Source: Rubricoccus marinus (GTDB lineage Bacteria; Bacteroidota; Rhodothermia; Rhodothermales; Rubricoccaceae). Taken from it: a DNA stretch of 64,000 nt. A program made the translations under genes and the position numbers. Positions 37,847 through 63,364 of the stretch are shown here, in pieces; position 1 is the stretch's first letter, and each line of letters starts with the position of its first letter. The notes beneath the pieces were generated by a model. It had not been told where the DNA came from and searched no databases. It saw nothing but the letters and a program-made list of their open reading frames with translations. The stretch covers positions 3,483,119-3,547,118 of the forward strand of contig NZ_MQWB01000001.1 in the NCBI RefSeq assembly GCF_002257665.1, written 5' to 3'.

Positions 37847-37894
37847 CCGTTCCGCTGCAAGCTCGCCTGGCCTCTGGCGGAACGCGCCCGCCTC

Positions 37895-42831: not shown

Positions 42832-42893
42832 CTCTCGGGCGTGGGGCGGCCTCGCAAGGTCCCAGCACACGGCCTCTGGCGCAAGGCGATTTT

Positions 42894-43143: not shown

Positions 43144-43146
43144 AAA

Positions 43147-43422: not shown

Positions 43423-43466
43423 TCCTCTGGCGCCAGGGCCGCCCGGTACCAGTGGCGCGCCAGAGG

Positions 43467-44126: not shown

Positions 44127-44178
44127 ACCGGTGAGCCGCGGCTGAGGGATCTCGGGTATCGGCGACCGCGCCGAGCCC

Positions 44179-44781: not shown

Positions 44782-44952
44782 ACGGGCAGGGGTCAGGAGA
44801 GGGAGGCCCAGGTGCGAAGAATCTAGCGTTCTGAAAAACCAGAGTGGCCGCGCCGTTTTGCTGCCGTTAGAGCGCCGCCGCGTCAGAGGCGTACGCCCGA
44901 GAGCCTCTGGCGACATAGGGACCCACAGGGCACACGCGGGCGTCCATCGCGC

Positions 44953-46005: not shown

Positions 46006-46023
46006 GCCTCTGGCGCCAGCGGC

Positions 46024-47550
46024 TCAGGCGCCGCGGAGGTGCAGCGCTACTTCGAGATCGCGCCAGAGGCGTTCGCCTTCGCCCGCGCGGTAGCGTCCGA
46101 AAACGTGTCGGTCCGGGCGCACGACGAGCGCATCGAAGCGGCCCAGCGTTTCGCCTAGGGCCTCTGGCGCGGGGAGGACATGGAGGCCTACGCCGGGGAG
46201 GTGCGCGGGGGCTCCGCTCCACGCGGCTGGGTCTCGCGCGAGGATCGCCCAGTTTGTCCCGAGGCGGTCGTCCAGGCGGTCGGGTTGCGGCAGGAGCGAG
46301 CGGCGCGGCGCGTGCGCGCCGGCGGTCGCCAGAGGCACGGGGCGGATGCCTTCAAGTGTGAGGTCCAGCAGCTTCGGCGCCAGAGGCGTGCGGTGGGCCA
46401 GCGCGAGGGCGCCGTCGCGGAGCGCTCCGAGGGCGCCCTGCGCGGAGACGAGGCGGCCGAGCGCCGCCGCCAGCCGCGTTACGCGCCGCACGTGCGGTTT
46501 CCGCTCGGCTTCGTAGCCGTCCAGGAGAGCAGCGCCGCTGGCGCCCCCGGATCGGCGCCCGGCGCAGTCTCCGGCCACGAGGCGCAGCCGCCACGCGAGG
46601 TCGAACGCGTCGCGCAGTCCGGCGCCGAGGCCCTGGCCGAGAAACGGAGGCATCTGGTGCGCGGCGTCGCCCGCGAGGAGCAACCGCCCCTGGCGCCAGG
46701 ACCGCGCGACAACATCGCGGAAGGTGTAGACGGCCGCGCGCTCGATCTCCAGCGGGAGCCGGGAGTCGGACCCGCCAGAGGCGTTTTCCCGTCTGAGCGT
46801 CGGATGTGCGGCGAGCCTCTGGCGGATCCAGGCCTCTTGCGTCACGAGCGCGTCCGGTTCGTCGTCGCGGAGCTTGAACTCCCAGCGGCGCCGGTCGCCG
46901 GGGAACGGGACAAACGTGGACGGGCGCTCACGGTCCGCGATCTGGAGCAGCCGGTCGGACAGCGCCAGAGGCGCGGTGAGGCGCGTATCCACGACCAGCC
47001 AACGCTCCTCGAACCTCCCGCCGTCCAGCGGCACATCCATCGCGGCGCGAACGCGGCTTCTGGCGCCGTCGCAGCCCACGGCGTACGACGCCCGAACCGT
47101 CTCGCCAGAGGCACCCGTGAGCGCGACGCCCTCGTCGTCCTGCGCGATCTCGGCGACCTCCCACCCCAGCCGCACGTCTACGCTCGGGAGCGCAGCGATC
47201 CTCTGGCGCAAGAGGCGCTCCACGGTCGGCTGGTGGATCAGCGTCGCGGTCGGCCAGCCGTAGCGCGTGCCACCGGCCTTGCGTGCGCGGAGGCGCGTTT
47301 GGCCCCTGGCATCCACCAAGTCGAAGCCGTCCAGCGTGCGGCCTCTGGCGCGGACCTCGTCGGCGACGCCAGCGGCCTGGAGGACGCGCATGGCTTCGTC
47401 GTCCAAGTGCGCCGCGCGCGGCAGGGAGTATGGCGCCGTCTCGCGTTCCAGCACGACCGTGCGCACGCCCGCCTCCCCGAGCAGCGCCGCCAGCGCTGCG
47501 CCCACCGGCCCGAGGCCCACGATCGCGACGCTGTACGAGGAAGTCTCCAT
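46024..47550 (-). CDS. FAD-dependent aromatic monooxygenase (MhpA/PheA-like)
   Basis: 508 residues. GxGxxG motif IVGLGPVGAALAALLGEAGV, the middle DG motif AVGCDGARSRVR, and the GD motif LLLAGDAAHQMPPFLGQGLG place it in class A flavin hydroxylases near 3-(3-hydroxyphenyl)propionate hydroxylase. The C-terminal thioredoxin-like part is present. No ring-cleavage genes are adjacent, so the substrate is open. Divergent from the cupin gene by 62 bp. Confidence 0.88.
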   Translation of the reverse strand: METSSYSVAIVGLGPVGAALAALLGEAGVRTVVLERETAPYSLPRAAHLDDEAMRVLQAAGVADEVRARGRTLDGFDLVDARGQTRLRARKAGGTRYGWPTATLIHQPTVERLLRQRIAALPSVDVRLGWEVAEIAQDDEGVALTGASGETVRASYAVGCDGARSRVRAAMDVPLDGGRFEERWLVVDTRLTAPLALSDRLLQIADRERPSTFVPFPGDRRRWEFKLRDDEPDALVTQEAWIRQRLAAHPTLRRENASGGSDSRLPLEIERAAVYTFRDVVARSWRQGRLLLAGDAAHQMPPFLGQGLGAGLRDAFDLAWRLRLVAGDCAGRRSGGASGAALLDGYEAERKPHVRRVTRLAAALGRLVSAQGALGALRDGALALAHRTPLAPKLLDLTLEGIRPVPLATAGAHAPRRSLLPQPDRLDDRLGTNWAILARDPAAWSGAPAHLPGVGLHVLPAPEALGETLGRFDALVVRPDRHVFGRYRAGEGERLWRDLEVALHLRGA

Positions 47551-47612
47551 GCCGCCGAAACACCCCACGCCCGCGCCCGGTTCGACGGGCTCCCTTCTAC
47601 CTCCCCATTCCC

Positions 47613-47960
47613 ATGGCCGACCAGTCCGTTAAGAAAATCGATTCCTCCGCCTCCCCGACCGGTGAGATGGGCCAGACCTACCTCGTCAGCGGCACCAAAG
47701 CCTCCATGCGCCTCTGGAACGAGGCCGCTGGCGAAGGCGGCGAGATGCACACCCGCCCGTACGAAACGCTGGGCTACGTGGTCTCCGGCCGCGTCGAGAT
47801 CCACATCGGCGACGACATCATCACGTGCGGCGAGGGCGACAGCTACTTGGTGCCCGATGGCGCCGAGCGCCGCTACAAGGTCTTGGAGGATCTGACCGCC
47901 GTCGAGGCCACCGCGCCGCCGGCCCAGGTCAACGACCGCGACGACGCCAGCGGCAAGTAG
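47613..47960 (+). CDS. Cupin domain protein
   Basis: 115 residues forming one cupin barrel: GGEMHTRPYETLGYVVSGRV (metal-type His and Glu) and EGDSYLVPDGAERRYKVLED. Possible metal site; reaction unknown. It is followed by a strong hairpin and one 18-bp palindrome of the iterated motif. Confidence 0.88.
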   Translation: MADQSVKKIDSSASPTGEMGQTYLVSGTKASMRLWNEAAGEGGEMHTRPYETLGYVVSGRVEIHIGDDIITCGEGDSYLVPDGAERRYKVLEDLTAVEATAPPAQVNDRDDASGK

Positions 47961-48001
47961 TCCCGGCGTTCGCCGTCGCGCCAGAAGCCTCTGGCGCAAA
48001 C

Positions 48002-48032
48002 GCGCCCTCCTTCGCGATGCGAGGGAGGGCGC
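48002..48032. terminator. Strong hairpin after the cupin gene
   Basis: GCGCCCTCCTTCGC (48002-48015) pairs with GCGAGGGAGGGCGC (48019-48032) with one T-G wobble and a three-base loop. It lies between convergent genes, so it can stop both. No T-tract follows on either strand. Confidence 0.75.
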
Positions 48033-48071
48033 ATTGGATTCAGGCCTCTGGCGCCAGAGGCGGCGACGGGC

Positions 48072-48695
48072 CTAGAAGTTGGGGCGGCCGATCCGTACGC
48101 CCACGAGCGCGGCCCACTGCCACGGGTTCACCTCCTCGCTCGTGTCGCGGCGCGTGTACGCCTCGCCGGTGAGTGGGACGCCCACATAGCCGCCCGCGTT
48201 GACGCCGAAGGTGTTGTTCAGCCAGTACGTCGCCCCGACCTCTACCGGCAGGTAGAACTCGTTGAAGCCCACGTTCGCGTTGGTCGACTGGCCGCGCGCG
48301 AGGCGCCGTTCGAGTTCGTCCGCGTCCGTGATGGGGACCTCCTGGTTTTTGGAGCCGAGGGCGATTCCCAGGCCGACGTTGCCCGTGATGGACCCCTCCG
48401 AAGGACCCAACTCGGCCTTCCACATAAAGCCGCTGACCCACGCAGACTGCGCCGAGTCCCCCTCGGCCAGAACGAGCCCGTCCAGCGTGCCGGCCATGTA
48501 CGTCTGCACCGTAAAGCGGTCCACCGATACGCCGAGGCCGACCCGTCCGCCTAGCCCCATCGTTCCGGCACCGCCCGCGAGGCCGATGGCGGGCCGGACG
48601 CCAGAGGCGCCGAACTGCGCGCTGACGGGAGTGGCGGACGCGAAAAGGAGCGCAGCCGAGAGGGCGGCCACGTACAGGCGGTTCGTTACAGTCAT
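48072..48695 (-). CDS. Secreted beta-barrel outer-membrane protein
   Basis: 207 residues. Signal peptide (1-27, ending VSAQ), Gly-rich alternating strands (GLAGGAGTMGLGGRVGLGVS), and a C-terminal Phe after VRIGRPN. Looks like a small OmpA/OmpX-type barrel of unknown role. A TAGGTTCG box (48726-48733) lies 31 bp upstream. Confidence 0.7.
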   Translation of the reverse strand: MTVTNRLYVAALSAALLFASATPVSAQFGASGVRPAIGLAGGAGTMGLGGRVGLGVSVDRFTVQTYMAGTLDGLVLAEGDSAQSAWVSGFMWKAELGPSEGSITGNVGLGIALGSKNQEVPITDADELERRLARGQSTNANVGFNEFYLPVEVGATYWLNNTFGVNAGGYVGVPLTGEAYTRRDTSEEVNPWQWAALVGVRIGRPNF

Positions 48696-48769
48696 AACGG
48701 AGCGACAGCGGCGCGGGATGGGCCGCGAACCTAACGCCAGAGGCCTCTGGCGATGAAGCGCCTCTGGCG

Positions 48770-49864
48770 CTACACGTTGAAGCGGAACAGCATCACGTCG
48801 CCGTCGGAGACGACGTACTCCTTGCCTTCGGAGCGCATCTGGCCCGCCTCTCGCGCGGCGCTCTCGCTCTCCAGTCGGTCGTAGGCCTCGAACGGGATCG
48901 TCTCGGCGCGGATAAAGCCGCGCTCGAAGTCGGTGTGGATGACGCCAGCGGCCTGGGGCGCTTTGGTGCCCTTCGTGATGGTCCACGCGCGGGACTCCTT
49001 CGGCCCGGCGGTGAAGTAGGTGATGAGGCCCAGGAGCGCGTACGCGGCGCGGACCAGGACGGCCAGGCCGCCTTCCTCGACGCCAGCGGCCTCCAGGAAC
49101 TCGGCGCGGTCCTCTGGCGCGAGCTCGACGAGCTGCGCTTCCAACTCGGCGGAAACGACGACCGACCCGGCGCCTTCCGTCTTCGCGTGCTCGGCCACCT
49201 TCTCGGACATCGCGTTGCCATCTGGCAGGTTGTCCTCGGCCACGTTCGCGGCGTAGAGGACCGGCTTGGCCGTGAGCAGGAACGAGCCCTGCAGGATCAC
49301 GCCCTCCTCCTTGGTGACCTCCAGCGTGCGCGCGGGCTTGCCGTCGGAGAGGTGCGCCTCCATCCGCGCGAGGAAGTCGGCCTCCGCCTTGGCGCTCTTG
49401 TCGCCGGTCTTGACCGCCTTGGCCACACGCTGGTGCCCCTTCTCGACCGTCTCCAGGTCTTTCAGGATCAGCTCGGTCTCGATCGTCTCGATGTCGCGCA
49501 GCGGATCGACGGAGCCCTCGACGTGGACCACGTTGGGGTCCTCGAAGCAGCGGACCACGTGGACGATGGCGTCCACCTCGCGGATGTGCATCAGGAACTT
49601 GTTGCCGAGCCCCTCGCCCTTGCTCGCGCCCGCGACGAGCCCCGCGATGTCCACGAACTCGATGGTTGCGGGAAGGGTCTGCTTGCTGCCCGCCAGCTCC
49701 GCCAGCCGGTCCAGGCGCGGGTCCGGCACGGCCACGACGCCCACGTTGGGCTCGATGGTGCAGAACGGGAAGTTGGCCGCTTGCGCTCCCGCGTCGGAGA
49801 GCGCGTTGAAGAGCGTGGACTTGCCCACGTTGGGGAGCCCGACGATGCCGACGCGGAGTGCCAT
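48770..49864 (-). CDS. ychF: Redox-regulated ATPase YchF (Obg family)
   Basis: 364 residues, full length. P-loop VGIVGLPNVGKSTLFNALSD, FCTIEPNVGVVAVPDPRLD, switch II FVDIAGLVAGASKGEGLGN, and a C-terminal TGS domain with TKGTKAPQAAGVIHTDFERG. It binds ATP (not GTP) and ribosomes. Universally conserved, single gene here. Confidence 0.97.
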   Translation of the reverse strand: MALRVGIVGLPNVGKSTLFNALSDAGAQAANFPFCTIEPNVGVVAVPDPRLDRLAELAGSKQTLPATIEFVDIAGLVAGASKGEGLGNKFLMHIREVDAIVHVVRCFEDPNVVHVEGSVDPLRDIETIETELILKDLETVEKGHQRVAKAVKTGDKSAKAEADFLARMEAHLSDGKPARTLEVTKEEGVILQGSFLLTAKPVLYAANVAEDNLPDGNAMSEKVAEHAKTEGAGSVVVSAELEAQLVELAPEDRAEFLEAAGVEEGGLAVLVRAAYALLGLITYFTAGPKESRAWTITKGTKAPQAAGVIHTDFERGFIRAETIPFEAYDRLESESAAREAGQMRSEGKEYVVSDGDVMLFRFNV

Positions 49865-50014
49865 GTTCAGATGCGGAAAGGGGAAAGCAACGGTGCGCCT
49901 CTGGCGCCAGAGGCCGATTCTAGACTCGCGAGGGCCGCGAGGGGGCGCGTTCGCGGTGAAATGGACGCGCCGCGATGGGGCGCCCCCTGAACGAGCGCGG
50001 CTGTAGGTTGCGGG

Positions 50015-50629
50015 ATGCGCCGCCTCGGTCTCCTGCTCCTCTTGCTGTCTCTCAGCTCGGCCTCTGGCGGCGTCCTCGCGCCAGAGGCGCAGGTCCTCCC
50101 CACGCCCCCGCCTCGGGACGGCGTGCCGCCGCCCATCGACCCTGTGGACGAGGAACTCGACCCGCCGCGGCCCGACCCTGTCCCGCGCCTGTCGTCCAGC
50201 CCCCGGCTCTACGGCGGCCCCGCACTCGGCCCCGGCCTCTTTGGCGCCTACGCCGCGCCGCAGCTCAACGTGTTCACGCAAGAGGCTGCGCTCTACATCG
50301 ACTACGACCCCAAGTTTACCGGCCAGGGCGGGCAGCTCCGCCTCGGGCTGGGCGTCGGGGGCAGCATCCGCCTGCTACAGGTCTTAGAGATCGTCGGCGA
50401 CTTCGACGCCGACCGGATCGACCTCGACGCCGGCGTCCGCGTCGGCCCGGCGTTCGACATCCCGTTCTTTTCCCCGACGGGCGAGCAGCGCACGCGCGCG
50501 TTCAGCGTCCTGTTCGATCCGTTCGTGCGCGGGCAGGTCCGACTGGGCTCCAACCGCGTCGTGTTCGCGGAGGTGGGCGCGAGCGAGCCGGCCATCCGCG
50601 GCGGGCTATCGCTCGGTATCGGCGGCTGA
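50015..50629 (+). CDS. Secreted hypothetical protein, beta-rich
   Basis: 204 residues. Signal peptide (1-18), a Pro-rich linker (LPTPPPRDGVPPPIDPVDEE), then Gly-rich beta strands (GGQLRLGLGVGGSIRLLQVL, RVGPAFDIPFFSPTGEQRTR). Could be a small barrel or lipocalin-like protein. Not recognised. The N-terminal ASG and APEA are encoded by the iterated motif. A TAGGTTGC box lies about 10 bp upstream. Confidence 0.65.
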   Translation: MRRLGLLLLLLSLSSASGGVLAPEAQVLPTPPPRDGVPPPIDPVDEELDPPRPDPVPRLSSSPRLYGGPALGPGLFGAYAAPQLNVFTQEAALYIDYDPKFTGQGGQLRLGLGVGGSIRLLQVLEIVGDFDADRIDLDAGVRVGPAFDIPFFSPTGEQRTRAFSVLFDPFVRGQVRLGSNRVVFAEVGASEPAIRGGLSLGIGG

Positions 50630-50682
50630 CCACGCGCCTGCAACGCGGCGGCTCTGGCGCCAGAGGCCTCTGGCGCGTGCGC

Positions 50683-52062
50683 TCAGCGCGCGACGGTAAA
50701 GGTGTGCCGCTCGCTGTGCTCGCCGGCCTGGAGCCGCACCAAATACCGGCCAGACGGCCAGACGGACGTGGAGAGATCAATGGCGGCCTCGCGGGCAGAG
50801 GCCTCGCGGCTCACGCTCGTTATGCGCCGGCCGAGCGCATCGTACACGTCCAACGTGAACGAGCCGGGGACGGGGAGCGTGAACGAGAGCCGCGCGGACG
50901 TGCGGGCCGGGTTGGGATGGCTGGTGAGCGCCAGAGGCGCGGGCTCTGGGGCGCTCGGCGTGCTCACGGAAAGCTGGAGGCCGGTGGCGCGCCACGCTTC
51001 GGTCTGCCCGCTCGGGTTTCTGCCGTACCCGACGATGGTGGTCCCGTCGTCGGAGATCTCGTAGGCGAGGCTGAGCTTCCACCCGCTCAGGTTCAGGCCG
51101 TAGTCGTCCTCTAACATCTCCTGGATACTCCTCATGCCTCCCTCTTCCGTCCAGAGGAACGCCCGGTACCCCTGCGGCTCGGCCTCGCTGTAGCCGACCA
51201 CGGCTGATCCGTCGGACGAGACCGCGAGGGCGACGGAGTGGAAAAAGCTCCCGGGGAGGTCGCCGAGACCAACCATGCCGCTTTCTTCCGTCCAGCGAAA
51301 CGCTTCGATTCCGTCGTCTGATTGGCCCCAGCCCGCGAGCACGTCGCCAGAGGCCGACGCGGAGTAGACGACCGAGAAGTACGTCCCGCCCGGCAGGTCG
51401 CCGAGCCCCACCATGCCTTCCTCTACCGTCCAGCGGAACGCTTCCGGGCCGTTCTCGGATTGGCTGATCCCTCCAATCACCCGTCCATCGGGCGAGATGC
51501 TGTAGGCCTGGGAGTAGAAGAAGCCCCCCGGCAAGTCCCCCAGGCCCATCATCCCGTCGTCTTTGGTCCACCGGAACGCTTCAAACCCCTTGTCCCCGTT
51601 GCTCTCCCCCACGACAACCACGCCATCGGCGGTCATGGCCGTGGCGCGGGAGAAGAAGAAGCCGCCCGGCAGGTCCCCGATGCCGACCATTCCGTTGGCG
51701 TCGGTCCAGACGAAGGCCTCTGTTCCGTTTGCGGATGCGCTCTGCCCCGCAACTATGCCTCCGTCCGCCGAGACCGCATCGGCGCGAGAGGCGAACGCGC
51801 CACCGGGCAGATCCCCCAACCCGATCATCCCGCCGCCTTCCGTCCACAAAAACGCCTCGTCCCCGCTGGACGATGAGCTTTCCCCGACGACGACCGAACC
51901 CTCTGCGGAGACGGAGTAGCCCTTGGAGTCAAAAGCGCCTCCCGGCAGATGCCCCAGCCCTTTAAACGACGCCTCTTGCGCCTGAGAGGCCGGAAGAACG
52001 GCCAGGGCCATCAGGCACCCGAGCAGGGCTACCGCTGCGGTTGGTGGGCAGGATCGATGCAT
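50683..52062 (-). CDS. Secreted HAF-repeat protein with type IX sorting domain
   Basis: 459 residues. Signal peptide (1-29); then six ~47-residue HAF repeats (pattern GLGDLPGG-x-F-x-S ... S-x-D-G-x-V-V-V-G ... EAF-x-W-T-x-x-x-GM) and one decayed seventh unit; then a C-terminal type IX sorting domain (LTSHPNPARTSARLSFTLP ... GRYLVRLQAG). Probably a surface or secreted beta-propeller-like protein. It has a good promoter 30 bp upstream. Confidence 0.88.
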   Translation of the reverse strand: MHRSCPPTAAVALLGCLMALAVLPASQAQEASFKGLGHLPGGAFDSKGYSVSAEGSVVVGESSSSSGDEAFLWTEGGGMIGLGDLPGGAFASRADAVSADGGIVAGQSASANGTEAFVWTDANGMVGIGDLPGGFFFSRATAMTADGVVVVGESNGDKGFEAFRWTKDDGMMGLGDLPGGFFYSQAYSISPDGRVIGGISQSENGPEAFRWTVEEGMVGLGDLPGGTYFSVVYSASASGDVLAGWGQSDDGIEAFRWTEESGMVGLGDLPGSFFHSVALAVSSDGSAVVGYSEAEPQGYRAFLWTEEGGMRSIQEMLEDDYGLNLSGWKLSLAYEISDDGTTIVGYGRNPSGQTEAWRATGLQLSVSTPSAPEPAPLALTSHPNPARTSARLSFTLPVPGSFTLDVYDALGRRITSVSREASAREAAIDLSTSVWPSGRYLVRLQAGEHSERHTFTVAR

Positions 52063-52091
52063 GGCATGGTCTCTCGTGGGTGACGGTAGAG

Positions 52092-52120
52092 CGAAAGTAC
52101 AGGGCGGAATGGCCGCACAA
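52092..52120 (-). promoter_or_regulatory. Bacteroidota-type promoter of the HAF-repeat gene
   Basis: On the minus strand, TTG (52118-52120) is followed after 18 bases by TACTTTCG (52092-52099), 29 bp before the start. The spacing is identical to that of the promoter at 2976-3004. Confidence 0.6.
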
Positions 52121-52196
52121 ATAGGCCCCACCCCCATTCCTCGGCTTCACGTTCCGGGCCTCTGGCGCCAGAGGCCACCCCGCTAGCTAGTGCTCC

Positions 52197-52865
52197 CTAC
52201 CGCTGGTACGGGACCGATATGAACTCCCGCTCTGGGAGCCGCACCGCCGTCAGCTTCCCCAGGTCCGGCCGGTGCGCGTAGACGGCGCCGGTGTCGATGG
52301 CGATGAGCATCTCCTCCGAGAGAGGCTGCGAAACGGGCGTATGCCCGCACACGACGGGGATGTCCCACGCCGAGAGGTCCGCGTTCAGGTGCTTCCGCGT
52401 CCACAGCACCACGTCGGGGTTCGGCTCCTCTAGCTGCTCCTCGATGGACTCGCCGGGAAGGAAGCCTGCGTGGACGAACGCGAAGCCGTCGATCTCGGCC
52501 GCGAGGACGGTCGCGCGGTAGAACGCGAAGTGCTCCGGGGGAACGCGGGTGTCCGGGTAAGACATGAGCGTTTCCAGGCCGCCGTTGGCGCTCCAGAGGT
52601 CGTAGGCGCCAGGCTTGGCGTCGGCCCAGTCCAGCAGCATCTGGTCGTGGTTGCCGCGGATAAACGTGCAGGCCGGGCCGTCGCCAGAGGCCGCCGCATC
52701 GCGGAGCGCCATCATCCGCTCGATCACACCGTAGGAGTCCGGCCCGCGGTCGATGTAGTCGCCGATAAACACGACGTGGTCCTCTGGCGTGAGGGCGAGG
52801 CGGTCCAGCAGCGCGTCGAGCGTGCCGAGGCAGCCGTGGATGTCTCCGATTGCGTACAGCGCCAC
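52197..52865 (-). CDS. Metallophosphoesterase (serine/threonine phosphatase / Ap4A hydrolase-like)
   Basis: 222 residues. Complete metal-binding set: GDIHGC, GDYIDRGPDS, RGNHD, FAFVHAG and CGHTPVSQPL. This is the PPP/PrpE/ApaH-type fold; substrate may be phosphoproteins or diadenosine polyphosphates. The start lies 9 bp after the nusB stop, so the two are co-transcribed. Confidence 0.92.
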   Translation of the reverse strand: MALYAIGDIHGCLGTLDALLDRLALTPEDHVVFIGDYIDRGPDSYGVIERMMALRDAAASGDGPACTFIRGNHDQMLLDWADAKPGAYDLWSANGGLETLMSYPDTRVPPEHFAFYRATVLAAEIDGFAFVHAGFLPGESIEEQLEEPNPDVVLWTRKHLNADLSAWDIPVVCGHTPVSQPLSEEMLIAIDTGAVYAHRPDLGKLTAVRLPEREFISVPYQR

Positions 52866-52874
52866 GTCTGTCGG

Positions 52875-53345
52875 CTACTCGCCCGTCTTGGTGCTCGTGT
52901 TGATGAGCCCACGGCCTTTCTTGGATAGGCGGTCGGTCTCGCGCAGTTCGTTCAGGATCGCGTCCAGCACGCCGTTGACGAAGCTGGGGCTCTTCTCGCT
53001 GCCGAAGATCCGCGCGAGGTCCACGGCCTCGTTGATGGTCACCTTTGGCGGGATGTCGTCAAAGTGGATCATCTCCGCGACGGCCATGCGCAGAACCAGC
53101 CGGTCCGTAAGCGCGAGGCGCGAGATCTCCCAGTTCTGGACGTGCTTGTCCAGGAGCGCGTCCGCTTCCTCGCGGACGTCCAGGCCCCGGAGGAGGAGCT
53201 TCTCCGCGAAGCGGATATAAGTCTTCTCGCCCTTGAAAATGGGCCGGATGAGCGTGTTCAGGATGTGCTCTACCGAGTCCCCGCTGACCTCTTGCGCGTA
53301 GAGGGCTTGAAGGACGCGCTCGCGAACCTGGCGACGAGTGCTCAT
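52875..53345 (-). CDS. nusB: Transcription antitermination protein NusB
   Basis: 156 residues. N-terminal STRRQVRERVLQALYAQEVS binds RNA; EISRLALTDRLVLRMAVAEM and KVTINEAVDLARIFGSEKSP, FVNGVLDAIL are family signatures. It joins NusE at rRNA boxA. It has no copies of the iterated motif, as expected for a compact conserved protein. Confidence 0.96.
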   Translation of the reverse strand: MSTRRQVRERVLQALYAQEVSGDSVEHILNTLIRPIFKGEKTYIRFAEKLLLRGLDVREEADALLDKHVQNWEISRLALTDRLVLRMAVAEMIHFDDIPPKVTINEAVDLARIFGSEKSPSFVNGVLDAILNELRETDRLSKKGRGLINTSTKTGE

Positions 53346-53571
53346 GAGAAGAGAGAGAACGAAAGCGAGGGAGAAGAACCCCGCCGAAGCGGGACAGCGA
53401 AGATAGACCGCCGCCGTCCGCGCCTAGGGGGAAGAGGCGGAGAAGCGGGGCCCTGGCGTTGCCGGGCGTAGGGTCCGTGTCGCCAGCGCGGCGCGCCAGA
53501 GGCCAGCGGCGGGACGTACGGAGTTAGGTCCGCCAGCGGCGAGGGTCTAGAGGCGAAACGCCGCGCTCTCT

Positions 53572-56109
53572 GTGCCGCTCTCCCCGCCCCCTCCCCCGCT
53601 CCGGTTCGCCGCGCGCCCCGCGTTTGTGGCTGCGGTCGCGTTCGGGCTCGGGGTTGTGGCCGCGGAGGCCGTGCCGGCGTCCAGGCCTCTGGCGTGGTTG
53701 GGGGCGGTCGGCGCGTGCGCGCTCTTCGCGGGGGCATACGCGTGGCGCTCCCGCCAGAGGCTGGTGACGCTACGGCCTCTGGCGATTGCGGCGGCGGCCC
53801 TCGCGGCCGTGTTCGCCCTCGGCGCGGGGCGGATGGCGGCGTGGAGCACGCTCCCGCCGGATCACATCGCGCACGCAGCGGCGCGGGCAGTGGAGGCGGA
53901 GGACCCCGACATCACGCTCTGGGGCACGGTCGAGGCCGAGCCGACGCGCCGGGCCTCTGGCGTGGCGCTCATTGTGCGTGCGGATTCGGCGCTGCGAGGC
54001 ACACGCGCCCAGCGCGTGCGGGGGTTGGTGCAGGTCACGCTCTCGATCCCACGGGCGAACCCGTGGAGCGGCGAACTCCCGCCCACGCCCGTCTACCCCG
54101 CGCTCCACACCGGCGACCGCATCGCGATCGCGGGCGCGCTCGGGGTCGCCAGAGGCCGGAGAAACCCGGCGGACTTCGACTACCATCGCTTTCTGGCGCA
54201 GCGCGGCATCCACGCCACTCTGCGCGCCTCTGGCGCCGAGTCCGTCGCCTTCCTCGCGCCGTCCGCCTCCGTTCCAACGCGGTTCGCGAACGCGCTCCGC
54301 CAGAGGATCCGCCGCGCGATGGGGGCGCACGTGGTCTCGCCAGAGGCCCGCGGCGTGCTGGGGGCGCTGCTTCTGGCGGACCGGAGCGGGATCTCGGACG
54401 ACACGCGCGAGGCGTTCGTGCAGGCGGGACTGGTGCACCTACTCGCCGTGTCGGGCCTGCACGTGCTGCTGGTGGGCTTCGTGCTGTACGGACTGCTCGG
54501 GCCGCTGCTCGGGAGGCTCGGCGTGGGCTGGCGAGCGCGGGAATGGAGCCGATCGCTGTTCACGTTCGCGCTCTTGGCGGCGTACGTGCTCGTCACCGGT
54601 GGCGCGATCCCCGTTGTGCGCGCGTGGGTGATGGCGAGCGTCGTGCTGGCCGGCCGCGCGCTCGAAAAGCCGTTCGACACGCTCAACACGCTGGGCGTAG
54701 CCGCGCTCGTGCTGCTGTTTATCCGCCCCGCCTCGCTTTTCGAGGTCGGCTTCCAGCTCTCTTTCGCGGCGGTCGGCGCGCTCGCCACGCTGACCCCTCT
54801 GGCGACCCGCCTGCTCCGCGCGCACGTCCCGGCGCGCGTTCTCGCTAGAGGCGGCGTGACGTGGGCAACGGAGATGACGCTGGCCTCTGGCGCCGCCACG
54901 CTGGGGACGGCGCCCGTGCTGCTGGTCCACTTTGGGCGCGTGCCGCTGGCGGGGCTGCTGCTCAACCTTGCCGCGATCCCCCTTACCGCCACGGCGCTCG
55001 GAGCCGGACTGCTCACGGCGCTCGCCGCGCCTCTGGCGCCCGTTGCCGACGTGTTCGGCGCGCTTGCGAACACCGCAGCGCTGGGCTTGCTCTGGACGAG
55101 CGAGATCGGCGCCAGAGGCCTGGGGCTGTTCTCCGTCGAGCGGTTCGTGACCGACGGACTCGTAATGGCGGCGATGGCGGCCGGTTTGGCTGCGCTCGCG
55201 TTGTGGCTGCGGCCGCGCGCGCGGTGGCGGATGGCGCTCCTCGCGCTCGGGCTCGTCGTCCTCGCGGGGTGGCGCGGGGTCGCCAGAGGCGAGGGCCGCC
55301 CGGCGCTGGATGCGGTCTTTCTCGACGTGGGACAGGGCGACGCCACGCTCCTCTCGTTTCCAAGTGGCGCGCATGTCCTGATTGACGCCGGCCCGGCCAC
55401 GCCCACCTGGGACAGCGGCGCGCGGACGGTTCTCCCCCACCTCGCGCGCTACGGCATCCGTCGGCTGGACCTCGTGATTGCCACCCACCCGGACGCCGAT
55501 CACACGGGCGGCCTGCCGTCCGTTCTCCAAGAGGTGGAAGTCGGGCGGCTTGTCCACAACGGCGTCCCGCGCGAGGACGGCCCGTGGGCCGAAACGCTTC
55601 GGATCGCGGACTCGCTTGGCATCGCGCAGCACGTCGCCGCCGCAGGAGACACGCTCGCCATCGGGCCTCAGGCACGTATCCACGTTCTCGCGCCCGGCCC
55701 GCAAGCGCTGGCCTCTGGCGACGCCAACGAGGGCTCGGTCTCGCTGCTCGTGCGGTTCGGCGAGACCGACCTACTGCTGACGGGTGACGCGGAAACGACC
55801 TCAGAGGCCGAAATGCTGGCGACGTACGGCTCCCTGCTCCGCGCCGAGGTCGTCAAAGTGGGCCATCACGGCTCTCGCACGTCCTCCACACCGCGCTTCG
55901 TGGAGGCCGCGAGCGCGGCGCCAGAGGCCGGGGGCGGCACGCGGTGGGCCGTCGTCTCCGTCGCGGAGCGCAACCGGTACGGCCTGCCGGACGAGGAGCC
56001 TCTGGCGCGGTGGGCCGCCAGAGGCGCCGGCGTGCTCTCCACGGCGGACCTCGGAGCGGTCTGGCTGCGTTCAGACGGCCGAGACCTCTACCCCGTGAAG
56101 TGGCGCTGA
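53572..56109 (+). CDS. comEC: DNA internalisation channel ComEC/Rec2
   Basis: 845 residues, full length. N-terminal membrane part and DUF4131 domain (about 15-200), competence domain (about 255-530; [20 protein letters not shown]), and a C-terminal metallo-beta-lactamase domain (about 590-840; [34 protein letters not shown]). It carries single-stranded DNA across the inner membrane in natural transformation. About 24 copies of the iterated motif or near variants fall inside it. It is the only competence gene in the window. Confidence 0.95.
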
Positions 56110-56272
56110 CACCGCCCGGCGCGACCCTTGGGAGACCGCGCGAAAGCCCGGCACCACCCATCGGAAGCGCTTCCGGCGCCTCTATATTCTGGCAGCCGCT
56201 CGGCTCAGCAGGCCATCACCCAGCCCGCCGCGCCGAGCGGCCCCGTTCCCTGATTCCCCTTCCCCCCATCCC

Positions 56273-57253
56273 ATGGAGAACCCCCGCATCTGGTTCGACG
56301 GCAAGCTCGTGAACCACGAGGACGCGACCGTCCATGTCCTCTCCCACGTCCTTCACTACGGCTCGTCCGTCTTCGAGGGGATCCGGTGCTACAAAACCGA
56401 CAAAGGCTCGGCCGTTTTCCGCCTCCGCGAGCACATGCGCCGCTTGGTGGACTCCGCCAAGATCCACCGGATGGAGATCGACTACGACCTCGACACGCTC
56501 TGCGACGCCGTCGTAGAAACCATCGAGGACAGCGGCCTGGACGCCTGCTACATCCGGCCGCTCACCTTCCGGGGGCACGGCAAGATGGGCGTCAACCCGC
56601 TCAACAACCCCGTCCGCACCATTATCGCGGTTTGGGAGTGGGGGCAATACCTCGGGCCGGAGGCCTTGGAGAACGGCGTGGACGTGCAGGTCGCCTCGTG
56701 GAGCCGCCCGGCGCCCAACACCATCCCCGCGATGGCAAAGGCAGGTGGCAACTACATCGGCTCGTCGCTCATCAAGATGGACGCCATCAAGAACGGGTTC
56801 GCCGAGGGCATCGCGCTGACCGTGGACGGCTACCTCTCCGAGGGCTCGGGCGAGAACCTGTTCATCATCCGCGACGGCGTGATCCACACCCCACCCGCGG
56901 CCTTCTCCATCCTGCCGGGCATCACTCGCGATAGCATCATCACCATCGCGCGGGAGCGCGGTTACGAGGTGCGCGAGGTGGCCATGCCCCGCGAGGCGCT
57001 CTACATCGCAGACGAGGTGTTCTTCACCGGCACGGCCGCCGAGGTCACCCCCGTCCGCTCCGTGGATCACCACGTCGTCGGCGGAGGCACGCGCGGCCCC
57101 ATCACGACCGAACTGCAGACGGCGCTCTTCGACGTGCTGCACCGCGGAGAGGACTCCCACGGCTGGCTCCGCTTCGTCGGAGACGCTGCGCCAGAGGCCT
57201 CTGGCGACGGCGTCGCGAGCGGCACGAAGTCGCCCGAGGTCAACGTGGCCTAG
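56273..57253 (+). CDS. ilvE: Branched-chain amino acid aminotransferase
   Basis: 326 residues. PLP lysine K156 ([15 protein letters not shown]), [35 protein letters not shown] and [16 protein letters not shown]. It makes Leu, Ile and Val from their 2-oxo acids. The C-terminal ~25 residues ([13 protein letters not shown]) are low complexity and motif-encoded. A TATATTCT box (56181-56188) lies 85 bp upstream. Confidence 0.95.
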
Positions 57254-57351
57254 CGCCCGTAGGCCGGATCGTTTCTGCGCGGGGCGCCTCTTCGGGGGCG
57301 CCCCGCGTGCGTGAGGGGCCCTACCTTCACCGACCCTCACCCGGCCGACGC

Positions 57352-59142
57352 ATGACGATCCGACTCGCGCCTCTGGCGCTCGTGCTTCTCCTCACCCCTC
57401 TCGCCTCCACCGCCCAGACCGACCTCGACGGCTCCGCAACGCCACGGCAGGGGACCCTCCGAGCGTCCTCCGCGACTCCGGCGGTGTTGGACATCCAGAT
57501 CGCGCCAGAGGCCGAGAACCCGGTCGCGGACTGCCCCGGCTACTTCACGCTCGGCGCTCCAGACGCCGTAGTGGACTGGGAGGGCGGCGGCAGCGCTCTC
57601 CGGGTCTGGGTCCGCTCCGCTCTGGATGGCGTGCTGATCGTGCAGGCACCGACTGGCGAGACGCTCTGCGAGGACGACACCGACGGCGTGCAGCCCGCCA
57701 TCCAGATCGGGCAGGCGCAGGCGGGCCGCTACGCCGTCTGGGTGGGCGCGTTCACGCCGACGACCGACGCCTCGCCAGCGGCGACGCTGTACGCCGGCCC
57801 TCCGCCGCCAGAGGTCTCGCTTCAGGAGCCGGGCGCCTCCACGGCTCGTCTTGAAATGGAGGACAGCGACCTCACGCTCGCGGAAGAGAGCCGCTCTATG
57901 AACACCGCGGTCGCGGCTCTCGGCTTGCCCGACCGCTGCATGGGCTTTATCGGAACGGCTCCGATGGCGGTCGTAAGCGGTGACGGCCCCTACACCGTTA
58001 CGGCGTCCTCCAGCGCGGACCTTGTCCTCGCCATCCGCACGGCCTCTGGCGACTGGCTGTGCGACGACGACAGCGGCCCAGACAAGGACCCAGCGGTCTA
58101 CATCACGGCTGCTGGCGAGCACACCGTCTGGGTCGGCACGTTCCGCGGGCACGCCCGTGGCGAGGCGCCAGAGGCCGGGCTCCGCGTAACGCGAGAGACC
58201 GTCGTGGAGGACCAGCTCCCCATTCTGCCCCCTCCCCCGCCACCAGCCGAGCGGGTGTACTTCTCCGAGGGCTCCTACACGCCGATCGACCTCACCTCGC
58301 GCGGCTTCCCCGTGCCTCTGGCGACGCAGAGCGAGATGGCGCAGGTGAACGTCACGGCGATGGGCGAGACCGCCAACCCCATTTCGGGCGCCGCCTGCGC
58401 GGGCTTTATCCCCGAGTCGGCCTCGGCCACGATCGAGTTCGGCGGCGCAGGGCCGCTCACGATCACCGCGGAAACCCAGAGCGGCGACCTCGTGATGGTG
58501 GCCAAGACGGCCTCTGGCGACTGGTTCTGCAGCGATGACGCCAGCGGCCAGGACCCCGCCATCGAGATCGCCAACCCCGGCGGAGACGTGATGGTCTGGG
58601 TCGGCACGTTCTCCCAAGGCGACGAGGCTCCAACGGTTCTGACGGCGCACCGTGCGGAGTTGATCGACGTGCTGCCTGAGGAAGAGCAGATCTACGACGA
58701 CTACCTGGAGATCATGGAGGGCGGCGTCGCGTCGTATTCCAGCGGCACGTACTCCGGCTCCGGCCTTTCGCCAGAGGCCGACGCTCCATCGCTGACGCTC
58801 GGCGCGGAGTCCAGCGTGGGAGTGGGCGGCACGGTGTCTACCCCCGTCTCGGGCGACGCGTGCGCAGGGTTCATCTCGGCGGCGCCCTCAGCGGTGGTCG
58901 CTGCAGGCGACGGCACACTGGCCTTCTACGCCTCTGGCGAGGAGGACCTCACGATGACCGTCCGCACGCCGAACGGCGACTGGTTCTGCAGCGACGACCA
59001 CATCGGTCTGGACCCAGGCATTGAGGTGTCCTCTGGCGGCGACGGGATGTATGCGATCTGGCTCGGCACCTTTACGCCGCTCCAGACGCCCTCGGCGGCG
59101 CGGCTCATCGTGGAAGAAGGCTCGCTCCGCTCCACGCGCTAG
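57352..59142 (+). CDS. Secreted protein with four tandem pre-peptidase-like domains
   Basis: 596 residues. Signal peptide (1-21), then four divergent copies of a ~110-130-residue beta domain. Each has a C-x-G-F/Y start, then a pattern close to RTxxGDWxCxDD, DPxIxI and a final VWVGTF. Units end near 115, 270, 415 and 580, with a Pro-rich linker before the third. Each unit keeps two cysteines. The domain resembles PPC-like beta sandwiches seen beside secreted S1 peptidases; no catalytic domain is present. Function unknown. Confidence 0.75.
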   Translation: MTIRLAPLALVLLLTPLASTAQTDLDGSATPRQGTLRASSATPAVLDIQIAPEAENPVADCPGYFTLGAPDAVVDWEGGGSALRVWVRSALDGVLIVQAPTGETLCEDDTDGVQPAIQIGQAQAGRYAVWVGAFTPTTDASPAATLYAGPPPPEVSLQEPGASTARLEMEDSDLTLAEESRSMNTAVAALGLPDRCMGFIGTAPMAVVSGDGPYTVTASSSADLVLAIRTASGDWLCDDDSGPDKDPAVYITAAGEHTVWVGTFRGHARGEAPEAGLRVTRETVVEDQLPILPPPPPPAERVYFSEGSYTPIDLTSRGFPVPLATQSEMAQVNVTAMGETANPISGAACAGFIPESASATIEFGGAGPLTITAETQSGDLVMVAKTASGDWFCSDDASGQDPAIEIANPGGDVMVWVGTFSQGDEAPTVLTAHRAELIDVLPEEEQIYDDYLEIMEGGVASYSSGTYSGSGLSPEADAPSLTLGAESSVGVGGTVSTPVSGDACAGFISAAPSAVVAAGDGTLAFYASGEEDLTMTVRTPNGDWFCSDDHIGLDPGIEVSSGGDGMYAIWLGTFTPLQTPSAARLIVEEGSLRSTR

Positions 59143-59255
59143 CAACGAGCGCTTTTGCGCGCACACAACCGTACCGTCGCGCCGTCTGGGCTGGCAACAT
59201 CCACCCGCGGCGCGGCGTTTGCATACCTCAAGGATCACCCCTTCCCCCGGAGACC

Positions 59256-59720
59256 ATGCAGACGCTACTACGACTCTCGACCCTCGCGCTTGCGCTTGTG
59301 CTCACCACCGGTAGCGCGCTCGCGCAGCCGGACCGCAACGGATCGCCCGCCGTGACGATGAGCGTCAGCGGCGACGCCGTCGCCTCCTCTCCCGTGCAGG
59401 CGGGCGGCAATGACCGCGTGGCCGTGCAAGGCAGCGGATGCTCGGGCTTCATCACCAACGCCACGCCGACCGCCGCCGTTACGTGGAGCGGCAGCGGCGC
59501 CCTCTCCATCTACGCGACCTCCGCTGGCGACGCGACGATCGTGATTTCGGACCCAGATGGCCGCTGGCACTGCAGCGACGATGCCGACCGCAGCAACGCC
59601 AACCCGGCCATCACATTCGCGCAGGGCAAAGCCGGCAAGTACCTCGTCTGGGTCGGCATGATCGACGCGGGCAAGGCCAGCGCGACGCTCAAGGCCAAGA
59701 GCGGCCAGCCCGCCTGGTAG
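59256..59720 (+). CDS. Secreted single-domain paralogue of the four-domain protein
   Basis: 154 residues. Signal peptide (1-23), then one copy of the same domain: GCSGFITNATPTAAVTWSG, DPDGRWHCSDD, NPAITF and KYLVWVGMID. It lies 113 bp downstream on the same strand, so the pair probably arose by duplication and may be expressed together. It ends at TAG abutting CCTCTGGCG and is followed by a canonical terminator. Confidence 0.78.
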   Translation: MQTLLRLSTLALALVLTTGSALAQPDRNGSPAVTMSVSGDAVASSPVQAGGNDRVAVQGSGCSGFITNATPTAAVTWSGSGALSIYATSAGDATIVISDPDGRWHCSDDADRSNANPAITFAQGKAGKYLVWVGMIDAGKASATLKAKSGQPAW

Positions 59721-59759
59721 CCTCTGGCGTGGCGCTCTCGCGCTTCGCACGCATGCAAA

Positions 59760-59795
59760 CGCCTCTGGTGACCTGATGTCGCCAGAGGCGTTTTT
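59760..59795 (+). terminator. Rho-independent terminator built from an inverted pair of the iterated motif
   Basis: CGCCTCTGGTGAC, loop CTGAT, then GTCGCCAGAGGCG (59778-59790), then TTTTT. The 13-bp stem has one T-G wobble. The right arm is an exact CGCCAGAGGC; the left differs by one base (CCTCTGGTG). Confidence 0.9.
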
Positions 59796-59813
59796 CTGTT
59801 CTAGCGTTTCTGC

Positions 59814-60701
59814 CTACTGCGCTCCGGTGAGAACCACGAAGTCGTCGGTGCCCATCTCGGGAACGGCACCAGAGGCCGGAGCCATGGTCACAACGAGGAT
59901 GCGAGCCTGAGACGCGAGGCGCCGGACGTGCTCGGGAATGCCGAGTCCGCCCGCGCTGTGGAAGCTGCCGTTGACGTGGACCGCCAGAGGCTGCTCGCCG
60001 GCCTGCGCCATCGCGTCCACCATGGCCTGAGCCATCGTGGCGTCGCGGAGGTTTTGAGCGGCCAGCATTCCGTCTACGCTTGGCATCCCAGGGATGGCGC
60101 CGTGGCTCCCCATGTCGCCCATGAGCGCGGTGAACTTCGTCGCCAGCAGCTCAGACGGCGGCGCGACGGGGGCCGGCATCGTGGCCCGGGCCTCTGGCGA
60201 GAGCGCGTCGAGCGCGTCGACGCTGCCCTCGCGCGAGACGAGGCTGACGTAGCGCTTCGGCGCGTTTGTACCCACGACCGGGATCCCGTTCGTGATGGAG
60301 AACTCCACGAGCGGGCGGTAGTCGCGGGCGTAGTTGGGCCACGGGCGAGACGCCGCGGTCATGTCTTGTTCGCGGATCACGCCCGAGGCGTACTCGTCCA
60401 GCACGCCTTGCACGTCGGTCTCGAACATCTCCATGCCGAGCACCACGCCTCTGGCGCCGCCGTAGCGCTCGTGGAGCGCGCGGAGGATGTGGAGCTGGAC
60501 GACGTGGCCGAGCGAGTCGTCGTGGATCTCGCCGAGGAAGACCACGTCCGCATCGGCTGCGGCGTTGACGATGTCACCAAGCGTAACGGCATGACCGTCG
60601 CGCGAGGTGACGGCCACAGACCCCGCGAGCGAATCGGGGGTCTGGGCGTGCGCGGCCATGGCGCTAGAGGCGAGGATCAGGAGAGCGAGGAGGCGTTTCA
60701 T
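59814..60701 (-). CDS. ChaN-like (Tiki superfamily) secreted protein, possible heme binder
   Basis: 295 residues. Signal peptide (1-19), then VVFLGEIHDDSLGHVVQLHI and VVLGMEMFETDVQGVLDEYA, typical of ChaN/DUF399. ChaN of Campylobacter is an iron-regulated heme-binding lipoprotein; this one has no lipobox cysteine, so it is probably periplasmic or secreted. The start overlaps the helicase stop (ATGA). Confidence 0.85.
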   Translation of the reverse strand: MKRLLALLILASSAMAAHAQTPDSLAGSVAVTSRDGHAVTLGDIVNAAADADVVFLGEIHDDSLGHVVQLHILRALHERYGGARGVVLGMEMFETDVQGVLDEYASGVIREQDMTAASRPWPNYARDYRPLVEFSITNGIPVVGTNAPKRYVSLVSREGSVDALDALSPEARATMPAPVAPPSELLATKFTALMGDMGSHGAIPGMPSVDGMLAAQNLRDATMAQAMVDAMAQAGEQPLAVHVNGSFHSAGGLGIPEHVRRLASQARILVVTMAPASGAVPEMGTDDFVVLTGAQ

Positions 60702-62410
60702 GCGTCGTCGTCGGTTTTGCGACGGCGCGAGCGCGAGCGGCTGCGCTTCTTCTTGGGTGCCTCGTCGTCTGCACCGTCATCGTCGTTGCGGCGGCTCGTG
60801 GTCTCGTCGTCGCCAGAGGCCTCTGGCGCGTCGTCCTCATCGCGGGCGCGCGTGTCCTCCCGGTCGTCGTCGTCGTCGTGGTCGCGGCGGCGCTTGCGGG
60901 AGCGGGGCTTCTCGTCCCCGTCCTCATCGCGGCGGCGCTTTTTGCGGGGCTTCTCGTCCTCGCCAGAGGCGTCGTCGGCCTCTGGCGCGGGCGTGACCTC
61001 GTGGAGGCTCTGGCGGTAGGCGTCGTCCAGGAGCATCGCGAGGATCTCCGGGTTGTCCTCCTCCACGAGCTGCCGGGCGACGGAGATGAAGCGCGCGGCG
61101 CGCTCCACGTCCATCGCGGAGCGGTCGCGCATGCGGTCCTCCAGGCGGTTCGTCAGGCGCTCGCCGACGCGGCGGCCCAACTCGTCGTCCGTCGGAAGCT
61201 CGCGCGTCTCGATCGGGATGTCGTACTTCTTGATGAGGTCCGCGATGGCCGTCCGCTCGTGCGCGGCGAACAGCGTGGTGGACGTGCCGCTCTTGCCTGC
61301 GCGGGCCGTGCGGCCGGAGCGGTGCACGTAGTACTCCTTGTCCTGCGGGATGTCGAACTGGAAGACGTGGCTGAGGTCGCTCACGTCGATGCCTCTGGCG
61401 GCGACGTCGGTCGCGACGAGGATGCGGAGCTTGCCGGCGCGCAAGCGGCCCATCACCTTTTCGCGGGCCTTCTGCGTGAGGTCGGACGAGATGCCATCGG
61501 CGTCGTAGCCGAAGTTCTGCAGGAACGTCGCGAGGTACTCCACCTGCCGCTTCGTGTTGGCGAAGACGATGGCGGAGGACGGGTTCTCCCACTCGATCAG
61601 CTTGGCGAGCGCGCGGTCTTTCTCCATCGGCGGGACCTCGACGGCGTAGTGCGTCATCATGTCCACATGGATGCGTCCGCCGGCGGGCGCGAGGAAGACG
61701 GGATCGGTCAGGAACTCCCGGCCGACGCGCTGCACCTGGTAGGGCATCGTGGCGGAGAACATGGCCGAGACGCGCTCCTTGGGCAGGAAGCGCTTGAGCT
61801 TGCGCATGTCCGGGTAGAAGCCCATGCTCAACATCTCGTCGGCCTCGTCCAGCACGAGCATCTTGAGCCCGTCCAGGCGGAGCGTGCGGCTCTCGATGTG
61901 GTCCAGCACGCGGCCGGGCGTGCCGATCACGACCTCGACGCCGGCCTTGAACGCCTCGATCTGCGGGCCGTACGACGTGCCGCCGTAGACGGCGACGGCG
62001 CGGACGCGCTCGTCCTCTGGCGCGGCGGCGTTCATCTTCTCAAACTCGCCGTGGATCTGGCGGGCCAGCTCGCGGGTCGGGCAGAGCACGAGCGCCTGCG
62101 TGACGCCGGCGTCGGGGTCCAGCATGTCCAGCATGGGCAGCAGGAAGGCGCCGGTCTTGCCGGAGCCCGTCCGGCTCTGCACGACCACGTCGCGGCCGTC
62201 CAGCGTGTGCGGGATCGCCTGCGCCTGAACGGGCATCAGCGATTCCCAGCCGAGCGCCTCAACGCCCTCACGGACGGTATCGGGCAGCGAGTCCAGCGTG
62301 GCGAGCGGCGCGTCCTCGGCCGGGTCCTCGAAAGGCGTCTGGGTGGGGTTGTCCTCTTTGCGCTGCTTCTGGGCAGTGCTCGTGAGGTCGATCTGAAGGG
62401 CGTAGGCCAA
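60698..62410 (-). CDS. DEAD-box ATP-dependent RNA helicase
   Basis: About 570 residues. Q motif and Walker A SRTGSGKTGA, PTRELARQ, DEAD, SAT, and HRSGRTARAG are intact. The C-terminal ~110 residues are a highly charged Arg/Lys/Asp tail. No ATG fits: the most likely start is TTG at 62410, before AYALQIDLTS. It probably unwinds structured RNA, in ribosome assembly or cold response. Confidence 0.93.
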   Translation of the reverse strand: MAYALQIDLTSTAQKQRKEDNPTQTPFEDPAEDAPLATLDSLPDTVREGVEALGWESLMPVQAQAIPHTLDGRDVVVQSRTGSGKTGAFLLPMLDMLDPDAGVTQALVLCPTRELARQIHGEFEKMNAAAPEDERVRAVAVYGGTSYGPQIEAFKAGVEVVIGTPGRVLDHIESRTLRLDGLKMLVLDEADEMLSMGFYPDMRKLKRFLPKERVSAMFSATMPYQVQRVGREFLTDPVFLAPAGGRIHVDMMTHYAVEVPPMEKDRALAKLIEWENPSSAIVFANTKRQVEYLATFLQNFGYDADGISSDLTQKAREKVMGRLRAGKLRILVATDVAARGIDVSDLSHVFQFDIPQDKEYYVHRSGRTARAGKSGTSTTLFAAHERTAIADLIKKYDIPIETRELPTDDELGRRVGERLTNRLEDRMRDRSAMDVERAARFISVARQLVEEDNPEILAMLLDDAYRQSLHEVTPAPEADDASGEDEKPRKKRRRDEDGDEKPRSRKRRRDHDDDDDREDTRARDEDDAPEASGDDETTSRRNDDDGADDEAPKKKRSRSRSRRRKTDDDA

Positions 62411-62625
62411 AGGTCTTGGAGAATGCGGGATGTCTCGCCAGAGGCTCGGGCCTCGCGGGACTGAAACGACCGCGCACCTCTGTTTTCTCGTGGACGCGGC
62501 CAGCGATGGTTCAGGATACACGCGGCTCTCGCGTCCGGTTGCTGCGCGCGGCTCTCTTCCGCAGAGTTTCCCGGCGCGCCGGCTCGCCAGAGGCTACTCG
62601 CGGCGCTGGCCTCTGGCGCCAGAGG

Positions 62626-63306
62626 CTAGAGGCCGATTCGGAGGCCGACCGTTGGAACGGTCTCGCCTGTTGGCGCCCGGTGCGCAGACGCAGACGCGGT
62701 GTACCCCACAACGGACCCCGCAGCCGCCCCCGCCGTGTAGGCGAGAAACCCGAGTCCAGAAACGAGCAAGCCGTCCGTAATCAACGGATCTGGATCGTCA
62801 TCTCCCCGACTCCTGCTGCGCTCCATCTGAAACCCGATCTCCACCAAGACGAGGCCAGGAACGACGCCGAGCGCGGCCCCGCCCACAGCGCCCAGCAGCG
62901 TTCCATCTTCTCCCAACGCCTGGCCCATCGCGTAGACGGCCGTTCCGCTGACGGCGGGAAGCGCGAGCGCCGGCACGATGGACTCCGCCCCGACGCTCAG
63001 CGCTACCGTGCCGACCGACGCGGCGACGCCCGTAGCAATCAGCAAGAGCCTATTTCCAGAACTGCGGGAAACGACGAGCGCGATGCCCCCTTCCCCTTCT
63101 ACTTGCTCATGAGAGACGCTCGCGCCAGCCTCGGGCAGCACGAGCACGCTTTCGAGCAGCCCACCAGAGGCCTGACCCACCGCCTCTGACGAAAGGCTGC
63201 TCCGCTCGCCAGAGGCGTCTGCAAGATGCTTGGGGTGAACGGAACCCGCCTCTTGCGCTAGGGTCGGCGCGGCAACGAACAGGAAAGCGAGCAGAGCGAA
63301 ACGCAT
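62626..63306 (-). CDS. Secreted or membrane hypothetical protein
   Basis: 226 residues. Signal peptide (MRFALLAFLFVAAPTLAQ), then three or four hydrophobic Gly/Ala-rich stretches (LLLIATGVAASVGTVALSVG, GAVGGAALGVVPGLVLVEIG, LLVSGLGFLAYTAGAAAGSV). Likely membrane-embedded; not recognised. The TAG stop overlaps an exact 18-bp palindrome (62609-62626). Confidence 0.6.
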   Translation of the reverse strand: MRFALLAFLFVAAPTLAQEAGSVHPKHLADASGERSSLSSEAVGQASGGLLESVLVLPEAGASVSHEQVEGEGGIALVVSRSSGNRLLLIATGVAASVGTVALSVGAESIVPALALPAVSGTAVYAMGQALGEDGTLLGAVGGAALGVVPGLVLVEIGFQMERSRSRGDDDPDPLITDGLLVSGLGFLAYTAGAAAGSVVGYTASASAHRAPTGETVPTVGLRIGL

Positions 63307-63364
63307 GTCACGGGCGGTTGAAGGGTCCGCAAGCTATACCGCCCGTGAACCCGTTCCTGACCAT

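Follow-up and report, generated by a model that had tools for sequence, protein, structure and literature searches.

Introduction

In the Neisseriaceae, DNA uptake sequences (DUS; GCCGTCTGAA and its dialects, among them kingDUS and simDUS) are 10-mers that occur in thousands of perfect copies, at permissive sites and at gene ends, in bacteria with a type IV pilus and minor pilins. Inverted pairs at terminators are found for all DUS dialects, and overlapping dyads have been described for simDUS and kingDUS in Simonsiella muelleri (PMC3630211). The uptake sequences of Neisseria and Haemophilus are present at about one copy per kb, as is the USS of the Pasteurellaceae (AAGTGCGGT) (PMC1626085). 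The known or proposed uptake receptors are minor pilins, ComP in Neisseria (PMC3630211) and ComN/PpdA in the Pasteurellaceae (PMC12616744). In 2006, uptake sequences were known only from these two families, both Proteobacteria (PMC1626085), and the literature that we searched contained no report of an uptake sequence outside them.

Iterated words also occur in cyanobacteria. The HIP1 element (GCGATCGC) is palindromic, reaches a very high density in genes as well as in spacers, can be replaced by other words in other species and is linked to orphan methyltransferases (PMC4390886).

Here we analysed a chromosomal segment of 64,000 nt from Rubricoccus marinus (positions 1..64000; from here: the window) in the context of its 4.43 Mb genome and of related genomes. 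A preliminary description of the window had proposed that a 10-mer iterated in genes and spacers, with a complete comEC gene nearby, may be a DNA uptake sequence, and had named a HIP1-like word as the main alternative.

Results and discussion

comEC and the iterated word

The comEC gene (53572..56109, + strand), which encodes the inner-membrane DNA channel, is complete, as had been described, with an open reading frame of 845 aa and the Pfam domains DUF4131 (PF13567), Competence (PF03772) and Lactamase_B (PF00753). It contains 15 exact copies of the 10-mer GCCTCTGGCG/CGCCAGAGGC and five single-mismatch forms. The first exact copy is located at 53685..53694 on the + strand; further copies start at 53775, 53953, 54226, 54883, 55029, 55711 and 55998 on the + strand and at 53752, 54147, 54338, 55110, 55281, 55919 and 56016 on the − strand. 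The copy at 55919..55928 lies in an APEA segment that is absent from the ComEC of the same genus (ComEC alignment columns 790–800). Orthologues of ComEC were found in 8 of 8 other genomes of the family, with 49–66% identity. A ComEC comparison with named genomes gave distant relatives only, 40–46% identical at best, in agreement with a position in the Rhodothermota-like part of the Bacteroidota group. The presence of ComEC is not evidence for a role of the word in uptake, because it is found in all nine family genomes whatever their word.

The iteration turned out to be larger than initially described. The window harbors 261 exact copies (121 forward, 140 reverse; 4.1/kb) and the whole genome 14,176, divided almost evenly between the strands (7049 + 7127) and corresponding to about 3.2/kb or 1 per 312 bp, while the reversed word used as a control occurs only 24 + 37 = 61 times. 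This is denser than in Neisseria and Haemophilus, as claimed before, and exceeds also the densest genome in PMC3630211, that of Kingella oralis, with 5918 copies in 2.4 Mb (2.5/kb).

Composition, spacing and palindrome statistics were obtained from 444 kb of the chromosome. In this sample we counted 1481 perfect copies versus about 4 predicted from base composition and 709 single-mismatch forms versus 108 expected, a 6.6-fold excess, while two-mismatch forms were at chance level. The excess over expectation (O/E−1) amounts to 357, 5.6 and 0.01 at 0, 1 and 2 mismatches. This steep drop resembles the published profiles of the uptake sequences of H. influenzae (183, 2.0, 0.22) and N. gonorrhoeae (392, 4.8, 0.65) (PMC1939737). 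Variation is tolerated mainly at positions 1, 3, 4 and 7, and positions 2, 5 and 10 are nearly invariant in intergenic copies. A recognizer with graded tolerance would leave such a profile; the match is consistent rather than decisive, because the same study describes other frequent words as behaving likewise (PMC1939737).

As far as could be seen, the exact word is a feature of one lineage. In 113 further genomes of the order, counts reached at most 99, a value equal to the control count of the genome in question (G046), which represents the sole other species of the same genus in the comparison set. Of 49 ungapped positions compared with this relative, one shared the word at the same site. 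In a collection of 84,980 species, from which records of the own genome had possibly been left out, no other species had a cluster of three motifs. In the literature, the exact word appears in 27 papers; among the 20 matches listed, all were on unrelated subjects. Carriage by phages was considered and rejected, as an 18-bp palindrome formed by the word was absent from the viral contigs of IMG/VR.

Related words in other species

The words of relatives differ from GCCTCTGGCG but resemble it (CCGCCAGCGG, CCCGCCTCGG). The over-represented intergenic word in G046 and in a further member of the family, G050, is CCGCCAGC(GG). In whole-genome counts, CCGCCAGC occurs 8020 times in G046 versus 1599 for its reversed form and 7454 versus 2023 times in G050, with little or no excess in the genome of the window and in G047, G048 and G049. 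In G047 and G048 the over-represented intergenic word is CCCGCCTCGG, a word that has less support than the other two because only some 120 kb of each genome underlie it. All three contain CGCC followed by GG two or three bases later. These assignments cover four relatives, the samples of G043 and G044 being too small to judge. Similar words that change from one species to the next are a mark of DUS dialects (PMC3630211).

A secondary word, GCCGCTGGCG, is over-represented in the chromosome sample as well (234 copies versus 27 reversed). It is similar to the G046/G050 word and may be a relic or a tolerated variant.

Plasmid-like contigs

The preliminary description had raised the question whether copies are concentrated in core genes shared with relatives. 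We found the word scarce on plasmid-like contigs, and scarce also at conserved protein positions (see below). Compared with about 3.5/kb on the chromosome, the density was lowest on contig C15 (65 kb) with 0.09/kb, followed by 0.35/kb on C14, and ranged from 0.21 to 1.75/kb in the sampled parts of C10. Contig C11 (168 kb; L195, L196, L236–L242) is a mosaic with chromosome-like density at about 77–135 kb and a poor remainder. All four nevertheless have the G+C content of the chromosome. C14 and C15, which we infer to be plasmids, encode T2SSE-family ATPases that match conjugation ATPases in size and gene context. The intermediate densities suggest a gradual gain of the word after arrival, but they do not decide between uptake and an internal bias because both would produce gradual gain. 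In addition, C11 encodes a GspD-like secretin, a T2SSE ATPase and prepilins, a set reminiscent of type II secretion.

Is the word maintained by methylation or repair?

Alternatively, GCCTCTGGCG might arise and persist through an intracellular process, be it DNA methylation, mismatch repair or a different conversion bias, in the manner of HIP1 and with no role in uptake. Its copy number per kb is of the HIP1 type or higher, in genes as well as in spacers, the intermediate densities on plasmid-like segments fit a slow intracellular accumulation, and the change of word by species resembles the alternate HIP words that are tied to methyltransferases (PMC4390886). However, the whole genome lacks any match to the N6/N4 (PF01555) and C5 (PF00145) methyltransferase families. 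Its only match to PF02384, a Type ISP/IIG restriction-methylase of 1221 aa (L247:14540-18205), is encoded on the motif-poorest contig, C15, and none on the chromosome; the search comprised these three families. Moreover, in contrast to HIP1, GCCTCTGGCG differs from its reverse complement and palindromes arise only from overlapping pairs. A methyltransferase common to G046 and G050, which share a word, was sought and rejected, since none of the enzymes compared exceeded about 30% identity. The lack of a chromosomal methyltransferase of the three families weakens the explanation by intracellular maintenance, which we regard as unlikely.

Gene ends and overlapping palindromes

Within the first 20 bp past stop codons, the density of the word reaches 30/kb and falls to about 6/kb at 120 bp. 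Where about 40 bp of free space follow a gene, they contain a copy in 57% of cases and a palindrome in 19%. The palindromes are of two types, both exact overlapping inverted arrangements of 18 bp, with 85 instances of GCCTCTGGCGCCAGAGGC and 51 of CGCCAGAGGCCTCTGGCG in the 444 kb sample; together they contain 18% of the copies in the sample, while inverted pairs at any other single spacing number about two. In the window, GCCTCTGGCGCCAGAGGC occurs 18 times (7091..7108 and starting at 7367, 10273, 13475, 18674, 20345, 21952, 24132, 25721, 31522, 32993, 33448, 35321, 36403, 48044, 49897, 52158 and 62609) and CGCCAGAGGCCTCTGGCG 10 times (24327..24344 and starting at 363, 24452, 25664, 39163, 41845, 48735, 50658, 57189 and 60811).

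The earlier suggestion that inverted pairs act as terminators holds in part. Pairs do lie at gene ends and would form stable hairpins of about −11 to −14 kcal/mol, but no T-run follows the palindromes: the T content behind them is 0.167, equal to background, and at least 5 T in the next 10 nt were present in only 3 of 111 cases. The overlapping palindromes that follow stop codons probably represent copies retained at the ends of genes, where they form mRNA hairpins as well. The enrichment, the share of genes with a downstream copy or palindrome and the hairpin stability would fit also a word that acts primarily at gene ends, as an RNA or DNA element such as a terminator or mRNA 3′ hairpin, and is found elsewhere by drift. 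Against this, about two thirds of all copies are intragenic, on either strand and mostly single, the T-run is missing, and a terminator would not need one exact 10-mer. We therefore consider a primary gene-end function improbable.

TAG is the commonest stop codon in a sample of 452 chromosomal genes (window, L009–L027, L193, L194, L279–L283), terminating 47% of them in this genome of 69% G+C; in G050 the share is 64%. The final G of this stop codon doubles as the first motif base in 50 genes (TAGCCTCTGGCG).

Placement within genes and along the chromosome

The statement that copies lie in both genes and spacers was confirmed, with densities of 2.61/kb within and 7.91/kb between genes, a three-fold difference based on a custom-written gene caller. 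Within genes, the Leu-Trp-Arg frame is avoided and the frames encoding ASG, PEA, PLA and ARG are used. The RQR frame, which requires rare AGG codons, was observed 67 times, whereas codon use predicts 0.07. Amino acids that the word encodes match the orthologue of the same genus in 51% of cases compared with 72% elsewhere, and fall into insertions specific to this genome six times more often (6.4% versus 1.0%). The word therefore sits where protein change is tolerated.

Spacing along the chromosome is clustered rather than even (CV 1.2–1.3 in the 444 kb sample). A Chi-like recombination hot-spot word or a KOPS-like guide for replication or segregation might likewise be short, non-palindromic and G+C-rich, but such roles are hardly credible for a word that shows no orientation bias (chi-square p = 0.94, 27 stretches), occurs once per 312 bp and forms marked dyads.

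Pilus genes and the minor-pilin cassette

Outside the window, the chromosome encodes PilC and PilB (C1:207580-210874) and a pilus cluster (C1:690-700 kb) with three minor-pilin-like proteins, a PilT-family ATPase, PilM/N-like and PilO-like proteins and a PilQ-like secretin. The ATPase scored 317.7 bits, just below the cut-off of 319.1. The proteins in the PilM/N and PilO positions have 741 and 349 aa; the names PilM/N, PilO and minor pilin are based only on gene order and sequence features, as none of these proteins had a match in the libraries searched, and the PilM/N-like and minor-pilin-like proteins had none in the PDB either. Canonical prepilins (PF07963) were not found on the chromosome, the two matches in the genome both being on C11. 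Hence, of the competence genes and surface receptor that the preliminary description had looked to, PilB, PilC, a PilT-family ATPase, PilQ and probable PilM/N/O are present, and the three minor-pilin-like proteins are candidates for the receptor. The pilus may serve competence.

In G047, G048 and G050, these genes form a single operon, PilC-PilB-minA-minB-minC-PilT-PilMN-PilO-PilQ; the cluster is present also in G046, where the contig stops within PilM/N. Between G050 and G047/G048, the conserved proteins are 70–91% identical overall (PilB, PilT, PilM, PilO and PilQ about 89, 90, 70, 79 and 73%), similar to the identity between G047 and G048. In contrast, minA, minB and minC of G050 are only about 36, 31 and 39% identical to those of G047/G048 (range 30–40%), whereas G047 and G048 share 75, 76 and 66%. 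Among these three genomes, G050 is the one with the differing word. The divergence of its cassette is suggestive of a receptor swap, but the link between cassette and word is only suggestive because two genomes do not fit. G049 has both cassette types and yet little excess of the G050 word. The prediction that G046, with the same word as G050, has G050-type minor pilins failed, as the two minor-pilin-like genes found there are not G050-like; its operon copy is unassembled.

In the fragmented genomes of G043, G045 and G046 (L268, L270, L271, L264), contigs break at or beside the minor-pilin cassette, as would be expected if this segment varies within populations. G044 and G045 possess several minor-pilin-like paralogues per genome, with up to eight matches in G044.

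A candidate uptake sequence

The copy number, sharpness, placement and strand symmetry of GCCTCTGGCG, its dialect-like relatives and the pilus and ComEC genes are direct observations. In most features visible in the sequence, the word looks like a DUS. It has in common with the Neisseriaceae DUS the length of 10 nt, the thousands of perfect copies, the dialects among relatives, the inverted and overlapping dyads, the location at permissive sites and gene ends and genes for a type IV pilus with putative minor pilins (PMC3630211). It differs in belonging to another phylum, in its unrelated sequence, in its higher density and in the restriction of the exact word to one species. The USS of the Pasteurellaceae is more regularly spaced and shared across subclades (PMC1626085), whereas GCCTCTGGCG is clustered and confined to one species. 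The exceptions to the likeness are thus species breadth, even spacing, T-runs of terminators and a matching receptor.

Weighing these points, we consider it fairly probable that GCCTCTGGCG is a DUS-like DNA uptake sequence, a candidate outside the Neisseriaceae and Pasteurellaceae. The proposal of the preliminary description is strengthened by the pilus genes, the dialect-like words, the scarcity of the word on plasmid-like contigs and at conserved protein positions and the lack of a chromosomal methyltransferase in three families; it is weakened by the mixed correlation between dialects and minor pilins, and the failure of the other species of the genus (G046) to share the exact word speaks against it.

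Preferential uptake and the resulting drive could proceed as follows. Free DNA would first be recognized through the word by a receptor at the cell surface, which is probably one of the minor pilins of the chromosomal type IV pilus. It would then enter by PilT-driven retraction of the pilus and via the PilQ secretin, and cross the inner membrane through ComEC. Recombination would then swap resident alleles for motif-bearing ones, and under this uptake bias perfect copies would over time come to occupy all permissive DNA. A farther-reaching scenario is possible but doubtful: an independently evolved uptake-sequence system in Rhodothermota, denser than any DUS in the literature that we searched, whose dialects switch by exchange of the minor-pilin cassette within a conserved pilus operon.

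Conclusions

To our knowledge, no genetic system based on natural transformation is available in the group to which this bacterium belongs. If the word is maintained intracellularly rather than through uptake, it would be of the HIP1 kind but with no evident methyltransferase, which would likewise call for an explanation. If GCCTCTGGCG is an uptake sequence, it would represent a third, unrelated origin of such sequences, with several dialects in one family, and provide an independent test of their spread by uptake bias. It would then also reveal the way in which one dialect replaces another, and suggest that natural transformation takes place in this group of bacteria.
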